Assembly: GCA_029934875.1 (NCBI GenBank)
Contig: JAOZLK010000041.1
Coordinates: 1 to 14,661 of the forward strand
Direction of reading: 5' to 3'
DNA: 14,661 nt
DNA from: Bacteroidales bacterium
Lineage (GTDB): Bacteria > Bacteroidota > Bacteroidia > Bacteroidales > GCA-2748055
Within the stretch, counting starts at the first letter, position 1. The number at the start of each line of letters is the position of its first letter. A model generated the notes under the pieces. The model was given only the letters and a program-made list of their open reading frames with translations, ran no database searches and was not told the DNA's origin. Below, one piece after another: positions 272-12,235 of the stretch. The translations under genes were made by a program, and so were the position numbers.

Positions 272-3130
272 ATGCAGATTCAAAAACTGATTAGCCTCCC
301 ACCCGGGATGGTAAGCCATTTTCACCAGCTGGAGGGCAAAGATTCCGAAGAGTGGTATTGCGATTCCGATCCCATTGAAAAAAAAGTTGGCTCCGGAGGT
401 GGGACCGCCTCTGTGCTTGCTTCAGCCTTTAAGGCCGATGAGTTTGAAGGAACTTTCGCTGAATGGCTGGCCCTTAAAAAGCGAATGGTCATCCATTCCG
501 GGGGAGAAAGCCGGCGCCTGCCTGCCTACGCCCCATACGGGAAGTCGCTTCTGCCAATGCCGGTGTTCCGATGGTCCAAAGGACAGTACATTGACCAGAA
601 GCTACTGGATTTCCAGGTTGCTTACTATGAAAAGATTTTAAAACGGGCCCCCGGAGGATACACCACCCTTGTGGGAAGTGGGGATGTAATGTTTATTTCG
701 GGCGATCGCTTTAATGATCTGCCCGAGGCCGATGTACTGGTATTTGGGATCTGGGTGGATGATGAGGTTGCCTCCAGGCATGGAGTGTTCTTTAGTCCCC
801 GGCAGCAACAGGACCAACTTGCTTTTGTGAAACAGAAACCCTCCCCCGAGGCCCTGGGTAAATATGCGAAGGATTACTTCTACCTGATGGATTCGGGCAT
901 CGTTCTCATGAACGCAAAATGCACACAAAAACTTATGGAGAAGTCGGGGTGGGACGAAGGAAGTGGATCCTTCAGCGGTGCATTGCCCAATTATTATGAC
1001 CTCTATGGTGAGATGCTGACCTCTTTTGGTTCAGAGGCATCTGAGCCAGACATTGAGCTTGGAGGTCTGGATGTGAGATTGGTCCCTCTGACGGAGGGGG
1101 AGTTTTATCATTTCGGCAGCAACCGGGATTTGATTCAGTCCAGTCTGAATTTGCAGAACCGTGTAACCGACCAGCGCTTGAAATTTACCAGCGAAACGGA
1201 TCATCACCCATCCATCTTTCAACAGAATTCAAAAGTCGGGTATCAGTTTACCGGACTCAACCATCACCTATGGATAGAGAATAGTCACCTCCCGCAATCC
1301 TGGAAACTCACTCACCACCACATTATTACAGGAGTTCCAGAGAATGAGTGGAAGCTTGATCTTCCCGAAAACATCTGCCTGGATATCGTTCACCTTGCCG
1401 ACGGACGCTACTGTTTGCGACCCTATGGCTTTGATGATGGATTCCGGGAAAGCCTTGATGAAGGAGTGATGTGGATGGGAAAAAGCCTGGAGGATTGGCT
1501 GAAATCCCGCTCGCTTGATCCGGAGACAGCAGGTCTAAGCAGTGGCGATTCAATCTTTGAGCTGCCCCTTTTCCCGGTTCTTGATAAAGATGGGATTCCT
1601 GCTATGTTAAGCTGGATGCTATGGGGAAAGGGGAGTCATGATCAGTGGCTTGCTTCTGAGAGGCTGTCGGCCAGGCTCTTATCTGAAAGAACGGATCCTT
1701 TCATGCTCTATACACAGAGGGAGAAATTGCTGGCCCATACCCTCACTGCCCTGGCAAAAAACCACCACAAAAGCATCTTCTATTACATGGACCTGGAGCG
1801 CTGTGCCTCCGGCTTCAGGGGCTTGGGCCTGGACCTGCCCGCGGACCTTCCATCCGGGGAACCCATTGTAAAACAGATTAACGATCACATGTTCAGGGCC
1901 CTGGCTATTGAAGACTCCTCCATTTCAGGAGAGCATGAGCAATTGGCATTCGGGATTCTCAGGGAGGAAATGATCTCCACCCTCAAGTCGCAGGGAATTA
2001 ATCCTCAACGGAATGTACTGGATGATCAGATTCTCTGGGGCAGGAGCCCTGTTCGGCTCGACCTTGCCGGTGGCTGGACCGATACTCCGCCCTACTGCAT
2101 CATGGAGGGAGGGAAGGTGGTTAACCTTTCGGTAGAGCTGAACGGACAGCTTCCCCTACAGGTGTTCGCCCGCCCCCTGTCCGAGCCAAAAATTGTTCTC
2201 CGGTCCATCGACCTTGGAGAGAAGATCGAAATAAACTCCTTTGAGCAATTGCAGGGATATAACCGTGTGGGCGGGGGCTTTTCAATTCCAATGGCTGCCC
2301 TGGTGCTTTCCGGATTCGGTCCCGGTTTCACACAAAAGGAATATCCCAATCTCCAGGCTCAACTAAAGGCTTTTGGTTGTGGGATCGAGCTGTCCTTGCT
2401 TGCAGCCATTCCCAAAGGATCAGGACTGGGCACCAGTTCCAACCTTGCTGCAACTGTACTTGGCACCCTCAGCGAGTTTTGCGGATTGAACTGGGATAAG
2501 CATGATGTGGCCTACCGTACCCTCATCCTTGAACAGATGCTCACTTCCGGAGGTGGCTGGCAGGATCAGTACGGGGGGATATTTCCAGGTGTGAAATTAT
2601 TGGAGACCGGTCCGGGAATATTACAGAAACCTTCCATCAAGTGGCTTTCCGATCAGCTATTTTCAAATCGTGAAACAGGCGAAATGATGCTGCTGTACTA
2701 TACCGGGGTAACCCGGGTGGCCAGGGATATCCTAAGCGAAATTGTTAAAGGGATGTTTCTTAATTCTTCCCGCCACCTGGCAATATTCTCAGAAATGCAG
2801 GAGCATGCCAGGGAGACCTTTGAGACGATCCTGCGCAATGATTATGAGGGTGTTGCGGCAAGGGTAGCTCATAGCTGGGAACTGAACCAGCGCCTGGATG
2901 AGGGTACCAATCCCCGGGTAATCCAGGAGATCACCGGGAAGGTTGACGACCTGCTTCTGGGCTATAAATTGCTTGGGGCCGGTGGTGGGGGATACCTGCT
3001 TATGTTTGCCAAGTCAGCTGAGGCTGCGCTTCAGACCAGGCGTTTACTTGAATCAAAGCCACCCAACCGCAGGGCGCGCTTTGTGGATTTCAGCGTGTCA
3101 GATACAGGCTTCCAGGTATCCCGGTCCTGA
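272..3130 (+). CDS. fkp: Bifunctional L-fucokinase / L-fucose-1-phosphate guanylyltransferase (Fkp)
   Basis: This enzyme salvages free L-fucose: the kinase half makes L-fucose-1-phosphate and the guanylyltransferase half converts it with GTP to GDP-L-fucose, the cytosolic donor for fucosylated surface polysaccharides and glycoproteins. At 952 residues it matches the Bacteroides Fkp length (about 950). The N-terminal half is the fucose pyrophosphorylase domain, with the nucleotide-binding HSGGESRR at residues 75-82. The C-terminal part is a GHMP kinase: it begins near GRSPVRLDLAGGWTD (590-604), has the ATP-binding loop PKGSGLGTSSNLAAT (714-728) and ends with the glycine-rich GAGGGGY (902-908). 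All key motifs look intact. The ATG at 272 is used; no Shine-Dalgarno sequence is evident. It is monocistronic here, divergent from the DUF1080 gene and ending 2 bases from the convergent operon end. Confidence 0.96.
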   Translation: MQIQKLISLPPGMVSHFHQLEGKDSEEWYCDSDPIEKKVGSGGGTASVLASAFKADEFEGTFAEWLALKKRMVIHSGGESRRLPAYAPYGKSLLPMPVFRWSKGQYIDQKLLDFQVAYYEKILKRAPGGYTTLVGSGDVMFISGDRFNDLPEADVLVFGIWVDDEVASRHGVFFSPRQQQDQLAFVKQKPSPEALGKYAKDYFYLMDSGIVLMNAKCTQKLMEKSGWDEGSGSFSGALPNYYDLYGEMLTSFGSEASEPDIELGGLDVRLVPLTEGEFYHFGSNRDLIQSSLNLQNRVTDQRLKFTSETDHHPSIFQQNSKVGYQFTGLNHHLWIENSHLPQSWKLTHHHIITGVPENEWKLDLPENICLDIVHLADGRYCLRPYGFDDGFRESLDEGVMWMGKSLEDWLKSRSLDPETAGLSSGDSIFELPLFPVLDKDGIPAMLSWMLWGKGSHDQWLASERLSARLLSERTDPFMLYTQREKLLAHTLTALAKNHHKSIFYYMDLERCASGFRGLGLDLPADLPSGEPIVKQINDHMFRALAIEDSSISGEHEQLAFGILREEMISTLKSQGINPQRNVLDDQILWGRSPVRLDLAGGWTDTPPYCIMEGGKVVNLSVELNGQLPLQVFARPLSEPKIVLRSIDLGEKIEINSFEQLQGYNRVGGGFSIPMAALVLSGFGPGFTQKEYPNLQAQLKAFGCGIELSLLAAIPKGSGLGTSSNLAATVLGTLSEFCGLNWDKHDVAYRTLILEQMLTSGGGWQDQYGGIFPGVKLLETGPGILQKPSIKWLSDQLFSNRETGEMMLLYYTGVTRVARDILSEIVKGMFLNSSRHLAIFSEMQEHARETFETILRNDYEGVAARVAHSWELNQRLDEGTNPRVIQEITGKVDDLLLGYKLLGAGGGGYLLMFAKSAEAALQTRRLLESKPPNRRARFVDFSVSDTGFQVSRS

Positions 3131-3132
3131 TA

Positions 3133-3927
3133 CTACCTGATCACGATCTTTTTTACTCCTGATTGCACCTGGCCCGCATTGAGCTGGTAAAGATAGGTGC
3201 CTGGAGGCATCTGCCGGGTTGAAAGTTGCAAATGTCGCATTGATGCTGTCACGGGGTAGCTGAGGATTTTACGTCCGTTCATGTCCATGATCTCCAGGGA
3301 GCCTGAATATACGCCTTCAGGCAGAGAGACCGGGATATTCACCTGCTCATGGCCTGGATTGGGGTAGGCATTTCCCGGAGAAAAGCCTGTAATATCATAG
3401 CTTGCAGCTGGCTCCTCTTCCTCCGGCAGGGCATAGACGTAAGTGGAGGTCCGGTAGGGAATCACCGAATAGTCGTACTTGTAGACCAGGAATTTCTTTC
3501 CATGTTCCACGGTTTCGATAAGCTCGGTAAAGCCTGCACCCGAAGGTAGAGCCAGTAAATCAACCCCATTTTCGTTTATTAGCCGGGTTTCAAAGGTGAA
3601 GTAGTAGGAAAAATCGGTAGGCACGTACTTTGAGTAAATGTATACAAGCTCTATCAGCTCGTCATCATTAAAGAGGTGCTCTGAGACATACTGGATATCT
3701 TCCAGGTAATAACCTTCGGGTGTGGGAAGAGAAATGCTCTTCAGGAGGGTGTGGTCCATGTTGGAGATCAGGCAACGTTTATTGATCACATCCATGCTGT
3801 AGTATACATCTCCAAGGCTTTCGAGATGGCAGATGCTTGTCGATTCATCATAGGTTTTTTCAAATACCGGTTGGGCCAACAGGATCATGCCCATCATCCC
3901 GATAATCATGCTAAGGGTCACTCTCAT
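3133..3927 (-). CDS. T9SS type A sorting-domain protein, function unknown
   Basis: A 264-residue exported protein. It has an N-terminal signal peptide (residues 1 to about 20, hydrophobic core MIIGMMGMILLA), a middle region of about 150 residues that I do not recognise, an acidic linker (EEEEP, 169-173), and a C-terminal type IX secretion sorting domain. The sorting domain shows the usual YPNP (188-191), the MDMNGRKI strand (214-221), GTYLYQL (243-249) and the basic end KKIVIR (259-264). Proteins with this tail cross the outer membrane by the Por/T9SS machine and are often anchored to the surface. The middle region has repeated tyrosine-rich beta-like segments but no catalytic motif. It is the last gene of the operon, 23 bases after the TPR gene, so it may be the surface output of the cluster. 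The start ATG is supported by the signal peptide. Confidence 0.88.
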   Translation of the reverse strand: MRVTLSMIIGMMGMILLAQPVFEKTYDESTSICHLESLGDVYYSMDVINKRCLISNMDHTLLKSISLPTPEGYYLEDIQYVSEHLFNDDELIELVYIYSKYVPTDFSYYFTFETRLINENGVDLLALPSGAGFTELIETVEHGKKFLVYKYDYSVIPYRTSTYVYALPEEEEPAASYDITGFSPGNAYPNPGHEQVNIPVSLPEGVYSGSLEIMDMNGRKILSYPVTASMRHLQLSTRQMPPGTYLYQLNAGQVQSGVKKIVIR

Positions 3928-3950
3928 AGTGGTAGTTTTATAGGTTAAGG

Positions 3951-4574
3951 CTAATTCAACAAATCCAGACCCTCGATGGCCGAGGTCCCGCCAGGGGTGT
4001 GGAGCAGGGCTTTTTGAAACAGCACCTTTGCTTCGCGGAAGTTATTCAGTTTGAAATAGGACCAGGCCAGCATGTTCAGGGCATCATAGTCAAAGGGATA
4101 GAGGTTCGCGACCTTTCCGAAATATTTCTTTGCAGACTCATAATCTCCTTTTCCATAGAAGATCAATCCGAGCCTGTGCATGGCAATGGAGTTATTGGGA
4201 CTTATTTCCAGAATTTTCTCATACTGCTTCATTACCAGGGTCCAGTTGCCCATGGCAGCTCCCGGGTATACGATTCCAAAACGGGGTTCAATGGCATAGG
4301 GCATCAGGCTGATGGCATTGTTATAATAGGCCAGCGATTCGCTGAAGTTCCCCGCCTGGTAACTCAGCCAGCCCAGTCGCAGGTTGATTTCGTAAGATTT
4401 CTCGTCGTACACTCCCTTCAGGCTGTTGATGGCAGCACTCACCTCCCCCGTGGCTTCCTGGATATAACTTTGCTGGAAGGCATCTTTTGTCTCTACAAAA
4501 TTTTGCCCCGACAGGGTGATCATACTCATAAAAAGGCCTGCTCCAAGCAGGCAAATTGATTTTAGAATTTCCAT
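3951..4574 (-). CDS. Secreted TPR-repeat protein
   Basis: A 207-residue protein with a signal peptide (SICLLGAGLFMSMITLSGQ, about residues 6-24) and then tandem tetratricopeptide repeats filling the rest. Units are recognisable near 61-94 (INLRLGWLSYQAGNFSESLA), 129-162 (AMHRLGLIFYGKGDYESAKK) and 163-196 (ALNMLAWSYFKLNNFREAKV), with weaker ones at about 27-60 and 95-128. TPRs are protein-binding scaffolds; the lack of any other domain points to a periplasmic adaptor role. Its start overlaps the end of the upstream barrel gene by 13 bases and is preceded by a strong GGAGG ribosome-binding site inside that gene, so the two are probably made together and may interact. No lipobox cysteine is seen. 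Confidence 0.85.
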   Translation of the reverse strand: MEILKSICLLGAGLFMSMITLSGQNFVETKDAFQQSYIQEATGEVSAAINSLKGVYDEKSYEINLRLGWLSYQAGNFSESLAYYNNAISLMPYAIEPRFGIVYPGAAMGNWTLVMKQYEKILEISPNNSIAMHRLGLIFYGKGDYESAKKYFGKVANLYPFDYDALNMLAWSYFKLNNFREAKVLFQKALLHTPGGTSAIEGLDLLN

Positions 4575-5914
4575 GATACTCCTCCGTATATTGATATGGC
4601 GTTATATGTGATTGAATTGCTAAGCTCATTATTGGCCGGGTCAAGCGGATAAAAATTGCTCTGATGAGCTGTCCACCTTCCCCCAAGGTATAGCATGGAG
4701 CCCTTTTCGCTAATTGGCAAGGAAAAAGTAAGGCCCACTTTTTTCTGTATGACATTCGAAAAGCTGTTGAAAACGATGGATCCGTTCTGCTCCAGGTAGT
4801 TCGTCATATCACCTAAGGCACCATTCAGGTCCAGCCAGACCTTTTGTGCTATGGAAAAACCCGCATGTATCTCGGGGATGATCCTGAGGAGTCCCGTTGA
4901 ATCGGTCATTTCATACTGGCTGTTGAGGTAAGCCCCCAGGTAGAAATTAAGATTGCCCCGGGGGTACCAGGTCAGCCCCAGCCTGTTCTGGACCTGCTGC
5001 AGATTATTCAGGTTGGCATACCATGCGCCCAGGTTCAGGTTCAGACTTCCGGCCGTTTTGAGCACATTCAGTCCGCTTACCAGATCCAGGTTATCAGAGT
5101 AGCCCCATGCTACACGCGGACTCCCACCCTGCATGCCCTGGCTAAAAAAAATGGGGGTCTGGTAATGGACGCTTATAAGGTGAAACATGGGCATGAAGGT
5201 AAATCCCGAATGGCTTGTAAAAGAGGGGGATATATAGTACTGATACTGTTTTACATGCTGTGGGTCCAGATGAAGCTGGTAGAGGCCGTCATTGTAATAA
5301 TAGAAGTTATTCTTCGACAGGTAGGTGAACTTATGGTCAAGCCTGATCCCGGGTGTAATACTGTTTCCCAGGGAGATAGAAGTATTGAAGAAGTCGCGTG
5401 TGACATACTGCACTCCAGGTGGCAGGTCTGCAAACAGTGCATCGGGATCTGAAAGAATCTCATCATTCAGAGCCTTGCTATAAAGGAATTCTACTCCAAA
5501 TTGATCAACAGCCTGACCCTTCACCGGAGGCAGGCGAAGCGCCAGCTCCCCCCTGAACTCCTCCCGCACCATATTTGCCTGTTCAGCCTGTCCCGAAAAA
5601 AGCAGAGCGTAGTATAGGTACTCCATGGCCAGAGGGTCCGCCTGGTTGAATTCCAGGGCATGTTTGAAATGCTTTTCTGACGGGCGGTATTTTGTCTGAT
5701 TGTATAAGGCGATTCCCATCCTCAATCTGAGGTAGTAGTAGTCAATATCCTGCTTCAGGGCCTTCTTTCCCACGACAATAACGCTGTCCCATTCCCCGGC
5801 AAGAAAGAGCCGGTATGTTTCAGTGTTAATTTCATTGAAGTTCATTTGCTCCTGGGCACCGATGCCCGTGGAAACAATGAAAGCAAGCCCTATGGAGATA
5901 ATTAATCGGTACAT
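4562..5914 (-). CDS. Outer-membrane protein with N-terminal TPR-like region and C-terminal beta-barrel (YaiO-like architecture)
   Basis: A 450-residue protein with a signal peptide (residues 1 to about 20, cleaved after IGA). Residues of about 26-120 are helical and TPR-like (YLRLRMGIALYNQTKYRPSE; PLAMEYLYYALLFSGQAEQA). From about 135 to the end it is made of alternating, aromatic-rich strands (RLDHKFTYLSKNNFYYYNDG; NLNFYLGAYLNSQYEM) and finishes in a terminal phenylalanine (SIYGGVSWKF), the usual signature of a BamA-inserted outer-membrane barrel. This TPR-then-barrel layout resembles YaiO-family proteins, but I cannot confirm family membership. The ATG overlaps the 3' end of the UT-M23 gene by 13 bases. 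It likely provides an outer-membrane pore or docking site for the same pathway; substrate unknown. Confidence 0.8.
   Translation of the reverse strand: MYRLIISIGLAFIVSTGIGAQEQMNFNEINTETYRLFLAGEWDSVIVVGKKALKQDIDYYYLRLRMGIALYNQTKYRPSEKHFKHALEFNQADPLAMEYLYYALLFSGQAEQANMVREEFRGELALRLPPVKGQAVDQFGVEFLYSKALNDEILSDPDALFADLPPGVQYVTRDFFNTSISLGNSITPGIRLDHKFTYLSKNNFYYYNDGLYQLHLDPQHVKQYQYYISPSFTSHSGFTFMPMFHLISVHYQTPIFFSQGMQGGSPRVAWGYSDNLDLVSGLNVLKTAGSLNLNLGAWYANLNNLQQVQNRLGLTWYPRGNLNFYLGAYLNSQYEMTDSTGLLRIIPEIHAGFSIAQKVWLDLNGALGDMTNYLEQNGSIVFNSFSNVIQKKVGLTFSLPISEKGSMLYLGGRWTAHQSNFYPLDPANNELSNSITYNAISIYGGVSWKF
4581..4585 (-). promoter_or_regulatory. Strong Shine-Dalgarno site for the TPR gene
   Basis: GGAGG lies six bases upstream of the ATG at 4574, inside the 3' end of the preceding barrel gene. 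It stands out because the other starts in this window have weak or no Shine-Dalgarno sequence, as is usual in Bacteroidetes. It supports the ATG at 4574 and suggests independent initiation at this junction. Confidence 0.7.
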
Positions 5915-8094
5915 GTGGCCTTCAGTTGAAGATTATCTGATTCCACGGTGAATTTGTGGATTCCTCCCTCGTTCACCAGCAGTGTGAAATCGAAAGTTTT
6001 CATTTCACGACCGGCTACGAAATTCCTTGCCGAGGAGACCAGCCTGATTTCGCTGGGAGACATATCACTGTCGATCCAGTCGTAGCGGCAAGAGTATTCA
6101 GAACGCAGGAAGATCCAGAAGGGTGCAAGCAGGTCCTGTAGTCCCAGGAGGGGCTGAGAGTAAATCAGGTTCAGGGGGTACTTATCTGAGATCTTAAGGT
6201 CCTGGTAGAATCCTTGCTGTACCTGGAAGGCTGCAAGGAAGAAATAGTAAAGCAGGCCCTTTTTATCACCTGTGAAGTGGGTGAAATACATCAGGTTCCC
6301 GTCGTTAACGAAATATGCCATGGCACCCGAGGGCTGACACCTGATATAAGAGTTGTTATAGGGATCGGTATTCACTTCCCAATATGAGCTCTTCTTTTCC
6401 CCGTTGATCACCATGTCGAAATGGTACCTTCTTCCCGGGATGAAATGAAAAGCAGAGAAAAGCAGGTCATTTCTTTCAATATTCGAAACCAGGTCTCCCA
6501 ATTCCGGGAGCTCAAAAGATTTCAGGCGGAATCCATCCTTTCTATGGTGGATGTGATAGCTAATGGGGTACTCCTTTGTAACCGATCCGATGTAAGGTGT
6601 TTCCTGAACCTGGAAATGAAGGTGGGGATAGGGGGACCTGCCAGAATTCCCGCACCGGCCAATCTCATCGCCCTCCTTGATGGAATCACCCTCCTTTACC
6701 TTGATGGAACCCTCTTTCAGGTGGCTCAGGGAAGTATAGAGCTGATCGTCGTGTTTGATGATGACAGTGTTACCCCAGTTTTCTTTCACGTTCACCTCAC
6801 CCACAATGTTGTCCGGGATCCGGTCCACCACCAGTTCCACCGTTCCGTCAGCAGGAGCCAGTACCATTTTCTCAAAACAGTAGTAGTCGGTGAGCAGGTC
6901 TCCACTACCCATGTACTGTTTCTCATCAGAATCGGTGATCACGAAATCCCAGGCATGCCTGAATTCATTTTTATGTGTATGTTCCCCGTCGTGGGCCTGG
7001 GAAACGGTCCAGATACCAAGAAAGGGCAGGCTGATGGGGAGCTCTTCGTGTTGTCTGAACCTGACCATGTCGTTGTGAAAGGCGTAGAGATTCTTTTCCG
7101 GCGAGTTGTGTTGAATCACTACCTCGGACAGGGCAAGGGAGGGTTTAAGTCTGAATTTAAGGGCATAGAGAAAGAGCAGCACCACCATGTTAAATGGCAA
7201 GGAATAGATGGGAAGGTTGAACACTGCAAATACCTTCGACAGGCTGATGGTGATCATGGCCACGATGGGGATCAGGATCACCACCCAGAAGTAGGAGCGC
7301 TTAGAGGGAATGATGAAAAATCCTCCCACCGCGATAGAGGTAAGGATGTAGTTAAACCCGATGTAGCTATAGCTTAATTCCGAAATATTTGCCCCGATGA
7401 TGTCGTAGAAAAGGTAGGCCGTGTAGAATCCGATGAGTGATAGGGAAAAAGAAATTCTTGAAAAGAGCAAGAGTCCTATCGAAAGGATGATCCCGGAAAG
7501 CAGGTTATACTGGAACAGAATGGCCCCGAGTGATATGAAATATATCCTGAGGGACCTGGGTAGTTGCAGTTCGTTCCACCATTCATAGACTCTGACCAGG
7601 GGGCCTCCACCAATGGTATAAAGGTCGTTAAAGGTATAGATTCCCCTTTCGCTGATTCCCAGAGCAGCAAAATCCTTGGTGGCAAGGGTCATGATCCAGA
7701 TAGAAAGCAGGAAGGGAATGGATAGGTAGGGCAGCGCGTATTTCCCAATCACTCCCTGCAGGCTTACCGAGATTAACAGGGTCAGGATTGCCGCAATGAT
7801 GATAACCAGGATCAGGTGAGGGCCAGGTTCGAAATAGATCCCGAGTCCGAGTCCCACGAGCAGACTGTTGAATCCAAAAACGCCTTTCGAGATGGTCTTC
7901 CTGTCAAAACCCAGCAGGAAACCTGAAAGGTTTGTGACGAGCACCGAAATGAAGCCCAGCAAGCCCGCATAGAGGTCGAAGAAAGTGACCACGATCAGGA
8001 TAAGCGCGAACATGCGCTGGTCCGAGAAGAAAACCTGCCCGTAACTATTGGGTATGGATTTCAGGAAGAGTTTTATATCGTCATTAAACTTCAA
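5902..8094 (-). CDS. Urea-transporter-family membrane domain fused to an M23 (LytM-like) metallopeptidase
   Basis: A 730-residue fusion. Residues of about 25-315 form a polytopic membrane domain with two homologous halves, as in urea transporters. Each half carries the UT signature LPxx(T/S)xPF, here LPYLSIPF (121-128) and LPIYSLPF (294-301), and a GFN motif (GVFGFNSLLVGLGLG 71-85; YIGFNYILTSIAVGG 244-258). Residues of about 365-500 are an M23 peptidase: candidate zinc ligands H374 or H380 with D383, then APADGTVEL, H458 in SLSHL, and the HxH motif HLHF (H491, H493) after GRCGNSGRSPYP. Residues of about 510-730 form a further soluble region I do not recognise. No ATG fits; translation appears to start at a TTG (8094), because an in-frame stop lies eight codons upstream and the first conserved UT segment begins within 30 residues. 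It follows the decarboxylase gene by 26 bases and overlaps the barrel gene by 13. Urea itself need not be the substrate; no urease or agmatinase is nearby. Confidence 0.85.
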   Translation of the reverse strand: MKFNDDIKLFLKSIPNSYGQVFFSDQRMFALILIVVTFFDLYAGLLGFISVLVTNLSGFLLGFDRKTISKGVFGFNSLLVGLGLGIYFEPGPHLILVIIIAAILTLLISVSLQGVIGKYALPYLSIPFLLSIWIMTLATKDFAALGISERGIYTFNDLYTIGGGPLVRVYEWWNELQLPRSLRIYFISLGAILFQYNLLSGIILSIGLLLFSRISFSLSLIGFYTAYLFYDIIGANISELSYSYIGFNYILTSIAVGGFFIIPSKRSYFWVVILIPIVAMITISLSKVFAVFNLPIYSLPFNMVVLLFLYALKFRLKPSLALSEVVIQHNSPEKNLYAFHNDMVRFRQHEELPISLPFLGIWTVSQAHDGEHTHKNEFRHAWDFVITDSDEKQYMGSGDLLTDYYCFEKMVLAPADGTVELVVDRIPDNIVGEVNVKENWGNTVIIKHDDQLYTSLSHLKEGSIKVKEGDSIKEGDEIGRCGNSGRSPYPHLHFQVQETPYIGSVTKEYPISYHIHHRKDGFRLKSFELPELGDLVSNIERNDLLFSAFHFIPGRRYHFDMVINGEKKSSYWEVNTDPYNNSYIRCQPSGAMAYFVNDGNLMYFTHFTGDKKGLLYYFFLAAFQVQQGFYQDLKISDKYPLNLIYSQPLLGLQDLLAPFWIFLRSEYSCRYDWIDSDMSPSEIRLVSSARNFVAGREMKTFDFTLLVNEGGIHKFTVESDNLQLKATCTD

Positions 8095-8120
8095 ACCGGA
8101 TATTTTGTGGATGAATCAGC

Positions 8121-9467
8121 CTACTTCAGGTGTTCTGGAATGAGCTCTTGCTGCCTGATCAGTTCCATGTTCTCCTCTTTTCGTATCACATGCACCTTGC
8201 CGCTGGTATCGATGAGCGTTACATTTGGACGAAGGGTGATGAACTGCATCCACTGGGTCATGTTATAGGCACCGATGCGTTTGACCACAAACTGGTCACC
8301 CTTTTTTAGCAGGGGGAAGGCAATGGCCTCCCTGAGCACGTCTATGTTCATGCAGAGCGGACCATAGATGGTGGTCTCCTCCATATGTTCAGAAACGGGT
8401 GCTGCCGGGTAAATCTCGTGCTCGTACCAGAAGGATGTGAAAAGCAGGTTGATCCCCACGTCCACGATGGTGGCCCGGTTCCCATTGGAGAGGCGCTTGT
8501 TGGCAATGACGGTTCCAAGCAGGTACCCGGCGTCATCGATCAGGGCCCGTCCGCTCTCAAGGATCAGGGTGGGAAGGTTCCTGGGATTCAGTTCAGAGTT
8601 GATGATGGCCGAAGAGATGGCTTCGGCATATTCATCCACCGAAGGAACGGTGTCTGATCCCGGGTAGTAAGCACCTTTCAGGGTATTGTTCGAGGCAAAT
8701 CCCCCACCCAGGTCCAGGTATTTGATGTTCACGCCATATTTCCTCTCAATCCCGTAAGCCAGGTCGGCCAGTTTCCCGGCGGCGACCTTGTAGGCGTTTG
8801 AGGCAAGCATGTATGTGCCAATGTGGGTATGAAGGCCCACCAGTTCGAGTTTCTCACTGATCATGATCCTGTTGATGGCATCCCATGCATCCCCGTTTTC
8901 ATAGTTGAAACCGAAACGGTCCCACATGGGATAAATTCCGGTATCCATGTTCACGCGAATGGCAACCTTGGGCCTTTTTCCCGAGTTTTCGGCAATGGCA
9001 ATGATGGAATACATCTCATCAAAATGGTCAATGTGGATCAGGGAGTCATTTTCGATGGCTTTTTTCAGATCCTCATCGTTCTTATCGGGACCATTAAATA
9101 TAATCTGGCTTCCCTTGACCCCGTTCTGAAGGGCCTTGTCATATTCAAACCCGGAAACCACCTCGGCCCAGGAGCCCTCCTGGTGGAAGACCCGGCACAC
9201 TGCATCCAGGTAGTTGGTTTTATAGGACCAGGCGAACTGGACCTTCGGGTAGCGTGTGGTGAAGGCGTGTTTCGCCTTCTTGTATTTCTCCCGGATGCAT
9301 CGCTCAGAGATCACGTAAAGGGGTGATCCGTGTTCGGCCAGCAGATCGGGAACTGCTACTTCATCGATATGGGTAATGGGTTCGGCCTGGGTTTTCATGC
9401 CAAATTTGCTGGGCATTCCGGCCTGCAGCTTCTTGATAAACGGTCTTTCAAAAGGTTTTTTAGCCAT
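8121..9467 (-). CDS. Fold-type III PLP-dependent decarboxylase (LysA / Orn-Arg-DAP decarboxylase family 2)
   Basis: A 448-residue enzyme of the alanine-racemase-fold decarboxylases that act on diaminopimelate, ornithine, arginine, lysine or carboxy(nor)spermidine. Visible family features (numbered from the ATG at 9467) are the PLP lysine K83 in AWSYKTN, HTHIG (213-217, the usual H-x-H-I-G), the phosphate-binding LDLGGGF (GGG 254-256), ESGRAL (304-309, where EPGR is usual), the active-site GPLCMNID with C372 and D376 in the C-x3-D spacing, and GAY with Y401. The catalytic set therefore looks complete. The frame continues 14 codons upstream to a TTG at 9509 inside the ATP-grasp gene, but the ATG at 9467, 10 bases after that gene's stop, is the better start. 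The N-terminus carries about 30 extra residues before the barrel. Its placement after an ATP-grasp ligase suggests a specialised rather than lysine-biosynthetic role; the substrate cannot be read from sequence. Confidence 0.88.
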   Translation of the reverse strand: MAKKPFERPFIKKLQAGMPSKFGMKTQAEPITHIDEVAVPDLLAEHGSPLYVISERCIREKYKKAKHAFTTRYPKVQFAWSYKTNYLDAVCRVFHQEGSWAEVVSGFEYDKALQNGVKGSQIIFNGPDKNDEDLKKAIENDSLIHIDHFDEMYSIIAIAENSGKRPKVAIRVNMDTGIYPMWDRFGFNYENGDAWDAINRIMISEKLELVGLHTHIGTYMLASNAYKVAAGKLADLAYGIERKYGVNIKYLDLGGGFASNNTLKGAYYPGSDTVPSVDEYAEAISSAIINSELNPRNLPTLILESGRALIDDAGYLLGTVIANKRLSNGNRATIVDVGINLLFTSFWYEHEIYPAAPVSEHMEETTIYGPLCMNIDVLREAIAFPLLKKGDQFVVKRIGAYNMTQWMQFITLRPNVTLIDTSGKVHVIRKEENMELIRQQELIPEHLK

Positions 9468-9477
9468 AATTTTCTTG

Positions 9478-10521
9478 CTATAATTCTCCACGGGTGGATA
9501 GTTCTTCAAATTCTTTCAGGTTGGTGATCAGGTCATAGGAGTAACGGATAAACATTTTTCCCACTTCGTAGGTATCCATGGGTTTAACCTCCATCCCAAG
9601 GGCCAGTTTTACCAGGGCCTCAGGCAGATTCTGCCCGGCACCAACGGCCAGGTATACCCAGGCCGGGATTCTTGGATTGATCTCTATGATAAACAGCTCA
9701 TTCTTGCTGGACTTCACCAGCTCCACTTCCATGCCACCTTTCCATTTCATGGCACTGATAATCCTGTGGGTCAGGTCAAGCAGCTTGGGATCATCAAGGG
9801 TGATACCCGACCAGGCCTTTCCCTTGTCGGTAATAAATTGTTTCCGCATGGGGACAGCACCAACGGTGTTGCCCTCCCCGTCTCCCAGGGCAACCACGTT
9901 GACCTCGGTGCCCTTGATAAATTCCTGGATGATAACCGGCAGACCCCATTTGGCGCTGATCTTGTTGTAGTTCATACGCACCTGCTCTTCGTTGTAGGCC
10001 AGGTAGGCATCATAGAACTTGCCCTTCACCATCACGGGGTATTCAAATTCGTCCTTAAGTTTTTCAATCTCATCGACACGGGTAATGACTTTGCTGAAGG
10101 GAACTTCAAGGCCATATTTCTTGCCAAAATCAGGCAGGTTGGTCTTGTGGCGTTCCTCGAACTGCTCGAGAGTGGGCAGAAAGGTCTTGATCCCTGCCTC
10201 CTCCAGGATGTGTTGCGAGCGCATGAAAGCGTAAAGCTCTGCATCAAAGTTGGGGATCAGTACATCGATGGGATCCTTTGCATGAATCTCCAGGATCCTC
10301 TGGATCAGCACATCTGAGCCTTCCGATGGATAGGGGACCTGGTAGGTTTTATCTACGACTCCCTCCATGTAGATGCCTGGCTCCAGGTTCTCATACGCCA
10401 GCCCGATGATCCTTGGATCGAAGGTTTCCGATTCTCTGATGCCCCGGATCACCGGAACTCCGGGGCCGGGATTATCCGTGTTATTCAATCCCGTCAGGGC
10501 AATGGTAATTTTAGTTTTCAT
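9478..10521 (-). CDS. ATP-grasp domain ligase (CarB-like)
   Basis: A 347-residue ATP-grasp protein. These enzymes activate a carboxylate as an acyl-phosphate with ATP and join it to an amine or thiol. The N-terminal Rossmann-like part begins at MKTKITIALTG and includes DVLIPNFDAEL, as in carbamoyl-phosphate-synthase-like ATP-grasps. The central part has the ATP-binding lysine K166 (VMVKGK) and QEFIKGTEVNVVALGD, and the metal-binding set E267 (MEVEL) and EINPR (280-284). The frame extends seven codons upstream to a TTG, but the ATG at 10521 places the first beta-strand at the N-terminus and overlaps the upstream stop as ATGAAAACTAA, typical of translational coupling. No biotin carboxylase or CarB tandem repeat is present, so it is a stand-alone ligase. 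Partnering with a PqqD-like protein suggests a peptide or amino-acid substrate, an inference only. Confidence 0.88.
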   Translation of the reverse strand: MKTKITIALTGLNNTDNPGPGVPVIRGIRESETFDPRIIGLAYENLEPGIYMEGVVDKTYQVPYPSEGSDVLIQRILEIHAKDPIDVLIPNFDAELYAFMRSQHILEEAGIKTFLPTLEQFEERHKTNLPDFGKKYGLEVPFSKVITRVDEIEKLKDEFEYPVMVKGKFYDAYLAYNEEQVRMNYNKISAKWGLPVIIQEFIKGTEVNVVALGDGEGNTVGAVPMRKQFITDKGKAWSGITLDDPKLLDLTHRIISAMKWKGGMEVELVKSSKNELFIIEINPRIPAWVYLAVGAGQNLPEALVKLALGMEVKPMDTYEVGKMFIRYSYDLITNLKEFEELSTRGEL

Positions 10522-10765
10522 TTTCCAGTTCCAGGAGTTCAAACTGTTTCAACATGCTGATAAAGTCGTAAAAATACTTTTCAAAGCTTTGAGGATCAAT
10601 CTCGTAATCCCTTGTCATCAGGGAGGTGATCTCATCCGGTGACTTGTTTTCGCCCAGATAGCCGAGGATCTCCTGTCCAACCTGGTTGATGGAGTAGGAA
10701 TCGCCGGTGGTGGGATTGAATACAAAACCGGTTTCACTGATTGCAATGTTTTTTTTAATCTGCAT
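10511..10765 (-). CDS. PqqD-family (RiPP recognition element-like) small protein
   Basis: An 84-residue protein matching the PqqD pattern: a short beta-rich start (IAISETGFVFNPTTGDSYSI), then N-x-x-G-x-x-I-L (NQVGQEILGYL) and helices with the eI...l...y pattern (SPDEITSLMTRDYEI), ending in LKQFELLEL. PqqD folds as a winged-helix-like domain; in PQQ and other RiPP pathways it binds the leader peptide and delivers it to modifying enzymes. Here no radical SAM PqqE or visible precursor accompanies it; the next genes are an ATP-grasp ligase and a PLP decarboxylase. It is the first gene of the operon, starting at an ATG 174 bases from the divergent regulator. PqqD-like proteins also occur in Bacteroidetes clusters outside PQQ synthesis, so the name pqqD is not assigned. 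Confidence 0.8.
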   Translation of the reverse strand: MQIKKNIAISETGFVFNPTTGDSYSINQVGQEILGYLGENKSPDEITSLMTRDYEIDPQSFEKYFYDFISMLKQFELLELENEN

Positions 10766-10939: not shown

Positions 10940-11515
10940 TTGCCTGACACGACTATTCATATTAAGAATATGATTTCCCATTGCTGCCTCAGGGTCATCA
11001 GGGGGGAATTTGAAAAAGCTGGCATAGAGGTCCGGGAGATGAGCCTGGGCAGGGCTGTGATTGCTTATGATTCCGACCATATTTCCATGGAGCAGATCAG
11101 GGCCATCCTCGTGGACCTGGGTACCGACCTTATCGAAACACGTGAGGACAGGCTGGTGGAGGAGATTAAACTGGCAGTGGTTGAACTGGTTCATCACATG
11201 AACAACGTGGACTCCATCGTCAGGAAGTCAGACTACCTGGTGGAAAAAACAGGTCTCTCTTTTGCGTACCTGTCGAGAATCTTTTCAAGCCGTGAGCATA
11301 TCACCCTTGAGAAATTCATCATCCTGAATAAGATAGAACGGATCAAGGAACTGATCGACCAGGAAGAGCTTACTTTGAGTGAGATTGCCTACATGATGGA
11401 TTATAGCAGTGTGCAATACCTTTCAAATCAGTTCAAACACATGACGGGGATGACCGTGAGTGAGTACAAGGAAAGTGACCGTTCCTCAAAGAGGCCCATC
11501 GACCAGCTATACTGA
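10940..11515 (+). CDS. Small AraC-family transcriptional regulator with HMA-like N-terminal domain
   Basis: A 191-residue protein. Residues 1 to about 70 look like the HMA-type beta-alpha-beta domain that precedes AraC HTH domains in many small Bacteroidetes regulators (IHIKNM, then a helix, then a VREMSLGRAVI strand). Residues of about 92-177 are the two-HTH AraC DNA-binding domain (LVEKTGLSFAYLSRIFSS; LTLSEIAYMMDYSSVQYLSN; final FKHMTGMTVSEYK). The metal-binding CxxC expected after IHIKNM is here SHCC (13-16): the first cysteine is serine. Translation appears to start at TTG 10940, because the first ATG (10970) would delete the first beta-strand. It is divergent from the seven-gene operon and is its likely regulator. 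The DNA-binding assignment is firm; the ligand is unknown. Confidence 0.85.
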   Translation: MPDTTIHIKNMISHCCLRVIRGEFEKAGIEVREMSLGRAVIAYDSDHISMEQIRAILVDLGTDLIETREDRLVEEIKLAVVELVHHMNNVDSIVRKSDYLVEKTGLSFAYLSRIFSSREHITLEKFIILNKIERIKELIDQEELTLSEIAYMMDYSSVQYLSNQFKHMTGMTVSEYKESDRSSKRPIDQLY

Positions 11516-11614: not shown

Positions 11615-12235
11615 ATGGAAACAGGAAAATTCAGAATTACAGGCTTAAGCATTGCCATACTGGCCTTTGCCCTCTCCCTTACCCAGTGTACTGATTTAGA
11701 GGGATTAGATGAAACCCCCGACACCGGAGTAGAGTTGTCCACGACTGAAAGTAGCGGGATTCTCTTCATGAGGGAGGAGGAAAAACTGGCTCGTGATGTA
11801 TACCTCTATCTTTATGAACTATACCCTCTCAGGCCCTTCCTGAATATCAGCAAAAGCGAGCAGGCACATATGGATGCGATGTTGTACCTGATCGACACAT
11901 TAGGTCTTGAAGATCCCGTGGGGGAAAATCCGGAAGGAGTCTTTCAGAATGAGGAGCTGCAGGAGCTCTATGACGAACTCATTGAGCGGGGCAGTAAAAG
12001 CCAGGAGGAAGCGCTGAGGGTAGGAGCCCTGATCGAGGAGGTGGATATTATAGACATTCAGACCGAACTGGAGGAACATGCCACCGATGAAGAGGTGATC
12101 AGGGTCTATACCAATCTACTCAGGGCTTCAGGAAAGCACCTCCGGGCCTTTGTAGGGGTGCTCGGGCTCTATGATGTAGAGTACGAGCCAGTCCTGATGG
12201 ACCCGGAACAGTACAGGCAGATCATCGAAGATTAG
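11615..12235 (+). CDS. DUF2202 ferritin-like putative lipoprotein
   Basis: A 206-residue exported protein of the DUF2202 family, four-helix ferritin-like proteins of unknown activity. The N-terminal hydrophobic segment (GLSIAILAFALSLTQC) ends at C25; glutamine before the cysteine departs from the strict lipobox, so lipidation is likely but not certain. Family motifs follow in order: LFMREEEKLARDVYLYLYEL (50-69), NISKSEQAHMDAM (77-89), the GVFQNEELQELYDEL segment (108-122), EALRVGALIEEVDIID (132-147) and SGKHLRAFVGVL (172-183). E54-E56, E82, H85, E141/E142, D144 and H175 are candidate metal ligands, as in ferritin-like folds. The gene stands alone, 99 bases after the AraC gene, and its stop overlaps the convergent mannosidase stop. 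A role in metal binding or oxidative stress is plausible but unproven. Confidence 0.85.
   Translation: METGKFRITGLSIAILAFALSLTQCTDLEGLDETPDTGVELSTTESSGILFMREEEKLARDVYLYLYELYPLRPFLNISKSEQAHMDAMLYLIDTLGLEDPVGENPEGVFQNEELQELYDELIERGSKSQEEALRVGALIEEVDIIDIQTELEEHATDEEVIRVYTNLLRASGKHLRAFVGVLGLYDVEYEPVLMDPEQYRQIIED

Follow-up and report, generated by a model that had tools for sequence, protein, structure and literature searches.

RREs are known for binding precursor peptides, and exporters that combine TPR with an outer-membrane barrel are known from the PgaA, BcsC and AlgK/AlgE type. In the discrete-RRE RiPP systems, which include lasso B1 and LppB of the linear polyphosphorylated peptides, individual leader contacts have been described: LppB D70 hydrogen-bonds the leader Tyr in the solved complex, the substitution N33A in LppB almost abolishes complex assembly, and PbaB1 F83 separates the leader pockets. 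For lasso leaders, PMC10368454 reports that Tyr(-17), Pro(-14) and Leu(-12) are required for B1 recognition. Among PLP decarboxylases, FigC, SbnH, AcsE, MccE and BtrK, each of which works on a conjugated amino acid, fall into one clade that also includes the DAP and D-ornithine enzymes, according to PMC7857480; BtrK is described there as decarboxylating carrier-bound Glu. The locus described here combines relatives of these proteins. A literature search aimed at the combination found no description of it in a title or the start of an abstract, in agreement with the sequence-only reading, which had recognised no named system, and the accessible portions of PMC2922099 and PMC12710340 hold nothing on this gene set.

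The window, a stretch of 14,661 nucleotides from a Bacteroidales genome (contig JAOZLK010000041.1), carries seven ORFs between positions 3133 and 10765, all on the minus strand in the ORF list of the whole window:

10511..10765, minus strand: PqqD-like discrete RRE, 84 aa (PF05402)
9478..10521, minus strand: ATP-grasp ligase, 347 aa (PF15632/PF02655)
8121..9467, minus strand: fold-III (alanine-racemase-fold) PLP decarboxylase, 448 aa (PF02784 and PF00278; the ORF opens at 9509)
5902..8094, minus strand: UT-M23 fusion, 730 aa (PF03253 and PF01551)
4562..5914, minus strand: TPR and predicted outer-membrane beta-barrel protein, 450 aa (sub-threshold TPR match; barrel judged from sequence)
3951..4574, minus strand: secreted TPR protein, 207 aa (TPR Pfam matches)
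3133..3927, minus strand: T9SS-sorted secreted protein, 264 aa (sorting tail PF18962/TIGR04183)

With the ATG starts that we chose for the ATP-grasp (10521) and decarboxylase (9467) genes, the gaps from gene to gene are -11, 10, 26, -13, -13 and 23 bases. The tight packing that had been noticed earlier is real, as indicated by the ORFs, the family matches and gaps lying between -13 and 26 bases. No tRNA or RNA element was found in the window. A role in anti-phage defence was rejected, as PADLOC matched none of the seven products at E ≤ 0.01.

The ATP-grasp family was found in 34 of 395 Bacteroidota genomes, and the UT-M23 fusion occurred in exactly those 34; across the 395 genomes, an M23 fusion bearing a UT domain was seen only where the ATP-grasp was present. 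The order PqqD, ATP-grasp, decarboxylase, UT-M23 was kept in all 33 loci fetched, and two control loci with M23 only did not have it. Counts of neighbours placed the secreted TPR gene in 87 of 113 loci and the TPR-barrel gene in 70, with a TPR-less barrel-like gene in 17 others (at +4 in 14 of these); a relative of the T9SS-sorted protein was present in 24/113, at several positions. This grouping of genes is far beyond chance. It had been proposed from the sequence that the cytoplasmic genes belong together with the envelope genes in one unit, with co-occurrence of the UT-M23 fusion and the ATP-grasp across Bacteroidota as the suggested check. That check has now been run, and the shared 34 genomes and the order kept in 33/33 loci bear the proposal out; the two sets of genes do not occur apart in most genomes. 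It is almost certain that the seven genes represent a conserved locus and one functional unit. This seems to be a dedicated biosynthesis-and-export locus of Bacteroidota, and its product seems to be an exported small molecule.

When the PqqD profile was compared with the PDB, its best matches were the lasso RREs TbiB1 (1.1e-13) and TfuB1 (1.7e-9). These matches, together with an Asn at residue 27 in 176/176 sequences, indicate an RRE domain of the leader-binding kind, and the assignment of the protein as a predicted discrete RRE nearest to the lasso-peptide recognition elements is well supported. Three of its positions correspond to residues with a described role, residue 64 being placed by alignments read by hand:

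10685..10687, minus strand: Asn27, equivalent to LppB N33 (Asn in 176/176)
10574..10576, minus strand: residue 64 (Tyr in the window), equivalent to LppB D70 (covariation with tail position -17)
10562..10564, minus strand: Phe68, equivalent to LppB F74 and PbaB1 F83 (Phe in 164/176, Leu in 6, Tyr in 6)

The RRE family and the pocket residues are shared with the discrete-RRE RiPP systems. The alternative that the protein is a LysW-like amino-group carrier was rejected, its C-terminus not being conserved.

The likeness extends to a ligand motif of the [Y/W]xxPx[L/V/I/F/A] type and to its distance from the end of the leader; however, the motif here lies on the PLP decarboxylase rather than on a precursor, and it may begin with Phe. 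It is part of an N-terminal tail with the following features:

9399..9467, minus strand: leader-like N-terminal tail of the decarboxylase (in register in 114/114)
9450-9452, minus strand: Phe(-17)
9441-9443, minus strand: Pro(-14)
9435-9437, minus strand: Ile(-12)
9405-9407, minus strand: Lys(-2)
9399-9401, minus strand: Gly(+1)

The lasso leader motif [YF]xxPx[ILV] was present in lasso register on 114/114 tails (Tyr in 58, Phe in 56), under a search pattern with Pro(+3), Lys/His(+15) and Gly/Ala(+17) as its sole fixed positions; the strict [YW] form was found in 60/112 tails. The spacing is that of lasso Tyr(-17), Pro(-14) and Leu(-12), and Gly(+1) falls at the position where the lasso core begins. 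Lys(-2) was found in 176/176 tails and Gly(+1) in 175/176, at positions where the search pattern permitted Lys/His and Gly/Ala, respectively. Docking of the tail would by itself leave these two invariant residues unexplained. No part of the tail is covered by the best stretch of any of the 52 PDB matches; these stretches all start at profile position 28 or beyond.

A further difference from the discrete-RRE systems is that no precursor was found in 113 loci and that, in family searches, none of the seven products matched a lasso cyclase or a B2 peptidase. The search for small genes covered 894 ORFs of 20-70 aa lying no more than 2 kb from the core across the 113 loci; none was conserved, the largest family being confined to 3 loci, and a separate RiPP precursor was rejected on this ground. 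A loose [YFW]xxPx[ILVFA] string occurs in 50/894 of these small ORFs, without conservation.

Position -17 of the tail covaries with residue 64 of the PqqD-like protein. Over 182 pairs, a tail Tyr was accompanied by Asp or Asn at residue 64 in 126/126 and a tail Phe by other residues in 56/56. The main set comprised 176 pairs, one for each of 176 distinct ATP-grasp sequences, and all fit (125/125 Tyr and 51/51 Phe). It contains 108 of the 114 earlier tails; 70 loci were added, two with unreadable tails (L168, L224) were dropped, and three that repeat other loci (L155, L156, L227) were not used. The six earlier loci left out by filters were read later and also fit (1 Tyr, 5 Phe); in five of them (L045, L095, L107, L118, L145) the PqqD gene had first been missed or had fallen under the cut. 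The mutual information at residue 64 was 0.868 bits, equal to the full entropy; the next PqqD column reached 0.286 bits, and the best of 349 ATP-grasp columns 0.519 bits. A first pass over 99 loci and 967 columns of three proteins had given 0.994 bits for residue 64 and 0.71 for the next column. On the ATP-grasp tree, five switches between Tyr and Phe were counted, all concordant and three on supported branches (first pass: three, two on supported branches). Although the independent-pairs test alone, with only these five switches, gives p 0.25, the covariation carries weight because it is complete and its site is a contact in a crystal structure.

Because the tail motif is joined by a covariation that matches the LppB D70 contact, the RRE probably binds an enzyme. 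We consider it highly likely that the RRE takes as its ligand the N-terminal tail of the decarboxylase, whose gene is the second one downstream, and that it binds this tail as lasso RREs bind leaders. Of the earlier claim that the PqqD-like protein binds a peptide, the leader-binding kind of RRE stands; the separate peptide gives way to the decarboxylase's own tail as the most likely ligand, given the motif, the covariation and the lack of a precursor in the loci searched.

The nearest solved relative of the decarboxylase is the N-citrylornithine decarboxylase FigC (7kh2), which scored 301 bits versus 231 for the best DAP decarboxylase, and an alignment showed that the active-site stretch GPxCMxxD is common to the two enzymes. 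The earlier assignment to basic or dicarboxylic amino acids was revised accordingly: the nearest enzyme acts on an amino acid that is already conjugated. The cluster enzyme scored below the curated FslC cut-off (236 bits vs 500). It differs from the FigC/FslC type and its relatives SbnH, AcsE, MccE and BtrK in having an ATP-grasp partner, neither an IucA/IucC-type synthetase nor an acyl carrier protein being found among the seven, and in its N-terminal tail, which is outside the matches to solved relatives; the BtrI/BtrJ/BtrK route also uses an acyl carrier protein, for which no match was obtained among the seven. A role as LysA in lysine synthesis was judged unlikely, since the enzyme fell under the curated LysA cut-off in 33/33 genomes (222.9 bits vs 297.9 in the window) and 28/33 carried a separate LysA above it. 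The other 5/33 (G000, G031, G116, G124, G365), which include the window's genome, showed no LysA above this score, and there a LysA role of the cluster enzyme is conceivable. The substrates of the ligase are not readable from sequence.

The UT-M23 fusion is made up of three parts:

7063..8094, minus strand: urea-transporter-fold domain, residues 1-344
6553..7050, minus strand: M23/LytM peptidase domain, about residues 349-514, predicted cytoplasmic
5905..6552, minus strand: beta-rich C-terminal region, about residues 515-730 (secondary structure of the model)

Its AlphaFold2 model had a mean pLDDT of 89.1 and a pTM of 0.75. The UT fold, supported by Pfam and by a fold search, is that of the urea channels dvUT and UT-B; the cluster protein differs from them in its fusion to M23 and the beta-rich region, and in the dvUT E187 position, placed by an alignment and by published passages, which is non-acidic in 40/40 sequences (Ala in 24, Leu in 10, other non-acidic residues in the rest; Glu or Gln in 0/40). 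The pore of a UT protein is narrow, perhaps too narrow for the product. The second domain has the fold of M23/LytM peptidases and five catalytic-type residues invariant in 40/40, which we take to be the zinc and catalytic residues. Beyond about residue 530 no family was listed, and the fold search barely covered that region. With loops assigned by hand, those on the side of the N and C termini had 10.15 K/R in 72.6 residues and those on the opposite side 3.3 in 76.9, in the same direction in 40/40; the short loops of the opposite side had 0.275 K/R in 27 residues. Because of this charge bias and of homology, the M23 domain is predicted to lie on the cytoplasmic side, a correction to the earlier description of the fusion. 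Unlike described M23/LytM peptidases, it would thus be a cytoplasmic domain on the C-terminus of a channel.

The 450-aa protein resembles the TPR and barrel exporters in joining TPR to a predicted outer-membrane barrel, but it reached no family cut-off, and no polysaccharide synthase was found among the seven products. The T9SS-sorted protein carries a type A sorting tail (TIGR04183, 36.5 bits; cut-off 23). It belongs to a small family, with 155 relatives among 5.8 billion proteins; for 21 of the 31 relatives listed on contigs of at least 10 kb, the contig equals in size one bearing a cluster gene. Its AlphaFold2 model is weak (pLDDT 75, pTM 0.57) and had no Foldseek match at E 0.001, lower rows including propellers and fibronectin domains. 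For this protein and the barrel, it is the neighbourhood that suggests a role.

The following route would fit these parts. Judging from the families, the RRE would bring decarboxylase and ATP-grasp ligase together by docking the one to the other. The ligase would link an amino acid to a partner by an amide-type bond; once conjugated, the amino acid would be stripped of its alpha-carboxyl by the decarboxylase. The topology suggests that the product may meet the cytoplasm-facing M23 hydrolase, which would release or trim it, and that the urea-channel-fold pore may pass it over the inner membrane. From their neighbours, the barrel and TPR proteins could carry it over the outer membrane, and outside the cell the T9SS-sorted protein may act on it or together with it. 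The route as a whole, from ligase through decarboxylase and M23/pore to outer-membrane export, is put forward tentatively, and we think it somewhat less than probable; the complete explanation, comprising the unit, the RRE-tail recognition and a route, has in our view about an even chance. The link from amino-acid chemistry to export drawn in the sequence-only reading remains reasonable, with the decarboxylase tail replacing a separate peptide as the ligand of PqqD.

Under a different explanation, the tail would be a carrier arm: the ATP-grasp would modify it, for example by placing an amino acid on Lys(-2), the decarboxylase would act on the tethered residue, and M23 would free it. The constancy of Lys(-2) and Gly(+1) exceeds what RRE contacts need, Gly(+1) sits at the lasso core start, the ATP-grasp, UT-M23 and decarboxylase genes stay together in the 33 fetched loci, and BtrK offers a case of a carrier-bound substrate; however, the Lys and Gly may serve only folding or the dimer, and we consider this explanation unlikely. 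We know of no modification of a decarboxylase tail. Its fullest form, in which the decarboxylase would be its own RiPP-like substrate, with the RRE holding the leader, Lys(-2) loaded, decarboxylation on the tether and an M23 cut at the mouth of a urea channel repurposed to let the product out of the cell, is rather more doubtful. Equally doubtful is the proposal that a separate peptide or amino acid is modified and becomes attached to the envelope, the T9SS protein being either the carrier or the substrate. The recurrence of relatives of this small family at several positions in 24/113 loci and their contig sizes are in its favour, but the 113 loci held no conserved precursor within 2 kb, the decarboxylase tail accounts for the RRE ligand, and no sortase or transferase family was found among the seven products.

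A pro-peptide role is improbable. The RRE would present the tail to the cytosolic M23, and a cut near Lys-Phe-Gly would activate or free the decarboxylase, like lasso B1 handing over to B2. The putative cut site is in the register of the lasso leader's end, and the M23 domain keeps its residues and is cytosolic by prediction; however, the ATP-grasp and the UT pore would go unexplained, and M23 enzymes of known specificity cut peptides containing Gly or D-amino acids. Finally, that LysA, urea uptake and wall-hydrolysis genes adjoin by chance is scarcely credible: each gene singly matches such families, some source annotations agree (e.g., urea transporter) and five cluster genomes have no LysA over the cut-off, but the separate LysA in the other 28, the cluster enzyme's scores under that cut-off, the strict co-occurrence (34 = 34 of 395) and the non-acidic E187 position argue against it.

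The preferred reading, that the RRE recognises the decarboxylase tail, pairs an RRE with an enzyme tag by sequence evidence, and the covariation reproduces a hydrogen bond of a crystal structure. If it is true, RREs can also serve to organise enzymes where there is no peptide precursor, and genome mining based on precursors would miss such loci. In addition, a predicted cytoplasmic M23 hydrolase and a urea-channel fold are joined in one protein that, among the 395 genomes examined, is confined to those with the ATP-grasp. Because at least 566 stretches in a scan of species genomes encode an ATP-grasp relative, some of which may lie outside clusters, the exported compound of this cluster may be common in environmental Bacteroidota.

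The seven genes of the cluster all lie on the minus strand (3133-10765), with gaps between them of -13 to +26 bases. Domain searches bore out the family labels of the sequence-only reading, except for the barrel of the 450-aa protein, which is a sequence judgement only. That reading had also linked UT-M23, the fusion of a urea-transporter fold with an M23 peptidase, to the ATP-grasp and decarboxylase genes, and this link held. Searching 395 Bacteroidota genomes with UT-M23 at a threshold of E 1e-10 gave hits in 63; these took in the UT half in 34 (in two pieces in G005 and as a shorter 535-aa frame in G255) and were confined to the M23 part in 29. An ATP-grasp alignment search of the same 395 genomes, with E 1e-40 as the threshold, also returned 34, and these were identical, compared by handle, to the 34 UT-bearing genomes. 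Loci were fetched from 33 of the 34 (the window's excepted), together with two M23-only controls. PqqD, ATP-grasp, decarboxylase and UT-M23 stood in this order on one strand in 33/33 fetched loci, while neither control contained any of the other cluster genes. A 661-aa ORF was interposed between PqqD and ATP-grasp in L045, small ORFs lay between decarboxylase and fusion in L044, and the fusion was split over two ORFs in L063.

A scan of species genomes found at least 566 stretches encoding an ATP-grasp relative, of which the best 80 were taken as loci; with a threshold of E 1e-60, the gene was present in 76 of 395 genomes drawn from the class to which the window belongs. Neighbours were counted in 113 loci, and the counts are lower bounds because many loci end at contig edges and some genes are split: decarboxylase 113, ATP-grasp 112, PqqD 107, UT-M23 103, TPR 87, TPR-barrel 70 and T9SS-family protein 24. 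Five loci without a PqqD above 35 bits nevertheless contain one, and 17 loci other than the 70 carry a TPR-less barrel-like gene. These in silico comparisons show that the cluster is one conserved unit.

Behind UT-M23, most of loci L035-L042 carry a TPR gene and then a barrel-like gene, and L044 and L047 carry a gene of 280-317 aa of no identified family and then TPR; no NCBIfam family matched the barrel-like genes of these loci. Split genes were observed in L063 (7949-10203, UT-M23) and L107 (9767-15422, ATP-grasp, decarboxylase and UT-M23), reflecting either decay or assembly error. Contig C1 of genome G124 has an identical ATP-grasp gene at both ends with equal score, probably an unclosed circle and not two copies.

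The cluster is flanked in the window by the following genes:

272-3130, plus strand: bifunctional fucokinase/fucose-1-phosphate guanylyltransferase (NF009948), separated at its end by 2 bases from the T9SS gene, which is on the opposite strand
10940-11515, plus strand: AraC-type regulator, divergent from the cluster on the far side of the PqqD gene
11615-12235, plus strand: DUF2202 gene (PF09968), on the same side of the PqqD gene as the regulator
12232-14661, minus strand: long ORF continuing past the window end, presumably resembling a GH2 beta-mannosidase

The fucokinase/guanylyltransferase gene was not counted in the unit. An AraC relative adjoins the cluster in 34/113 loci, mostly on the same strand, and a DUF2202 relative in 14/113. 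We take the short N-terminal domain of the regulator to resemble a metal-binding HMA domain; the Pfam scan of the window gave no HMA match for it. Metal-linked control of the cluster through this regulator is possible.

The T9SS-sorted protein was taken as a real but optional part of the cluster. Its alignment, in which distant rows are linked through chained matches, shows likeness beyond the sorting tail. Its relatives in the 24 loci are placed at -2 upstream of PqqD (9), at +1 directly behind ATP-grasp (4), at +5/+6 behind the barrel/TPR genes (6) or elsewhere (5). A search of 5.8 billion proteins, restricted to relatives sharing short words, found 155 relatives at E 0.001; among the matches listed, at least 21/31 on contigs of 10 kb or longer match a listed UT-M23 or ATP-grasp contig in length, a proxy for the same contig.

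The best solved-structure matches of a 25-row PqqD profile were the lasso RiPP recognition elements (RREs) TbiB1 (5v1u/5v1v, E 1.1e-13) and TfuB1 (6jx3, 1.7e-9), followed by the paeninodin and LPP RREs (9x90, 9x8z); PqqD of PQQ synthesis came only after these. In the LppB-leader structure (PMC13381572), D70 of LppB hydrogen-bonds the leader Tyr and N33 the leader's Pro region, and F74 lies in both leader pockets; its PbaB1 counterpart F83 divides them. Complex formation was reduced by D70A and almost abolished by N33A. Read by hand through printed alignments, D70, N33 and F74 correspond to residues 64, 27 and 68 of the window's protein, with an 18-residue offset for the PDB chains that is consistent for LppB N33/D70/F74 and PbaB1 G42/Q79/F83. 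Asn27 is present in 176/176 PqqD proteins and Phe68 in 164/176. The PqqD-like protein is thus predicted in silico to be an RRE of the lasso type. Two further PqqD-family genes above the Pfam cut-off occur elsewhere in the window's genome (contigs C235 and C408; loci L151 and L152), and the genes around them may form RRE systems of their own.

The decarboxylase alignment contains a conserved N-terminal tail, which is not covered by the best-matching stretch in any of the enzyme's 52 solved-structure matches. A pattern fixing only Pro(+3), Lys/His(+15) and Gly/Ala(+17) was matched by 114/114 decarboxylases, in which +0 is Tyr (58) or Phe (56), +1 Glu (109) or Asp (4), +5 Ile/Val/Leu (114), +7 Lys/Arg (108), +11 Gly (111), +15 Lys (114) and +17 Gly (113). 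Where the partner tail starts with Tyr (125/125), PqqD residue 64 is Asp (104) or Asn (21); where it starts with Phe (51/51), residue 64 is Tyr (40), Ser (9), Ala (1) or His (1). Six loci first filtered out and read later all fit as well (one pairs Tyr with Asp, five pair Phe with Tyr or Ser), giving 182/182 pairs (176 + 6). The information of residue 64 about the tail start is complete (0.868 of 0.868 bits, n=176), against 0.286 bits for the next PqqD column and 0.519 for the best of 349 ATP-grasp columns. On the ATP-grasp tree there are 5 tail switches, 3 of them on supported branches, and residue 64 switches with each. For the 3 supported pairs a sign test gave p 0.25, and so few events cannot be significant alone; however, the column that follows the tail completely is the very one named by the crystal structure. 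The in silico evidence indicates a leader-like tail on the decarboxylase that covaries with the putative RRE at its contact site. No conserved separate precursor came to light: 894 ORFs of 20-70 codons, each lying no more than 2 kb from the core and overlapping no called gene by >30%, were compared over 113 loci, and the largest family comprised 3 loci.

The decarboxylase profile matched N-citrylornithine decarboxylase (FigC/FslC) at 301 bits and the best DAP decarboxylase at 231, and the window's enzyme falls under the curated cut-offs of both families. Examination of 33 of the 34 cluster genomes showed a distinct LysA above cut-off in 28 and none above it in five; the window's genome (88% complete) has a LysA fragment only. 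PMC7857480 places FigC, SbnH, AcsE, MccE and BtrK in a single clade that also contains DAP and D-ornithine decarboxylases, and describes these five as decarboxylating an amino acid already conjugated to citrate, microcin C or a carrier protein. The ATP-grasp is carbamoyl-phosphate-synthase-like, and solved-structure comparison gave no close relative. By analogy, its position next to a conjugate-type decarboxylase would fit a 'ligate, then decarboxylate' order like that of butirosin synthesis, where the ligase is presumably an ATP-grasp.

Membership in known families was considered, and none fitted: RiPP clusters fell short on the precursor, LysA and FslC on the curated cut-offs, the BtrI route on the carrier protein, and UT urea channels on the E187 site. 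Literature searches aimed at this gene combination, in a collection with few subscription journals, yielded no title or abstract start describing it.

We infer that the RRE would dock the decarboxylase to the ATP-grasp ligase and that the product may be an amino-acid conjugate that has been decarboxylated. Its release and passage would fall to M23 and UT, and the barrel, TPR and T9SS proteins may export it further or act on it extracellularly. The invariance of tail Lys(-2) and Gly(+1) in leader numbering (+15 and +17 of the pattern above) would be compatible with a tethered intermediate or with cleavage. Every part comes individually from a known family; the novelty would lie in their combination and in the use of a predicted RRE on an enzyme.
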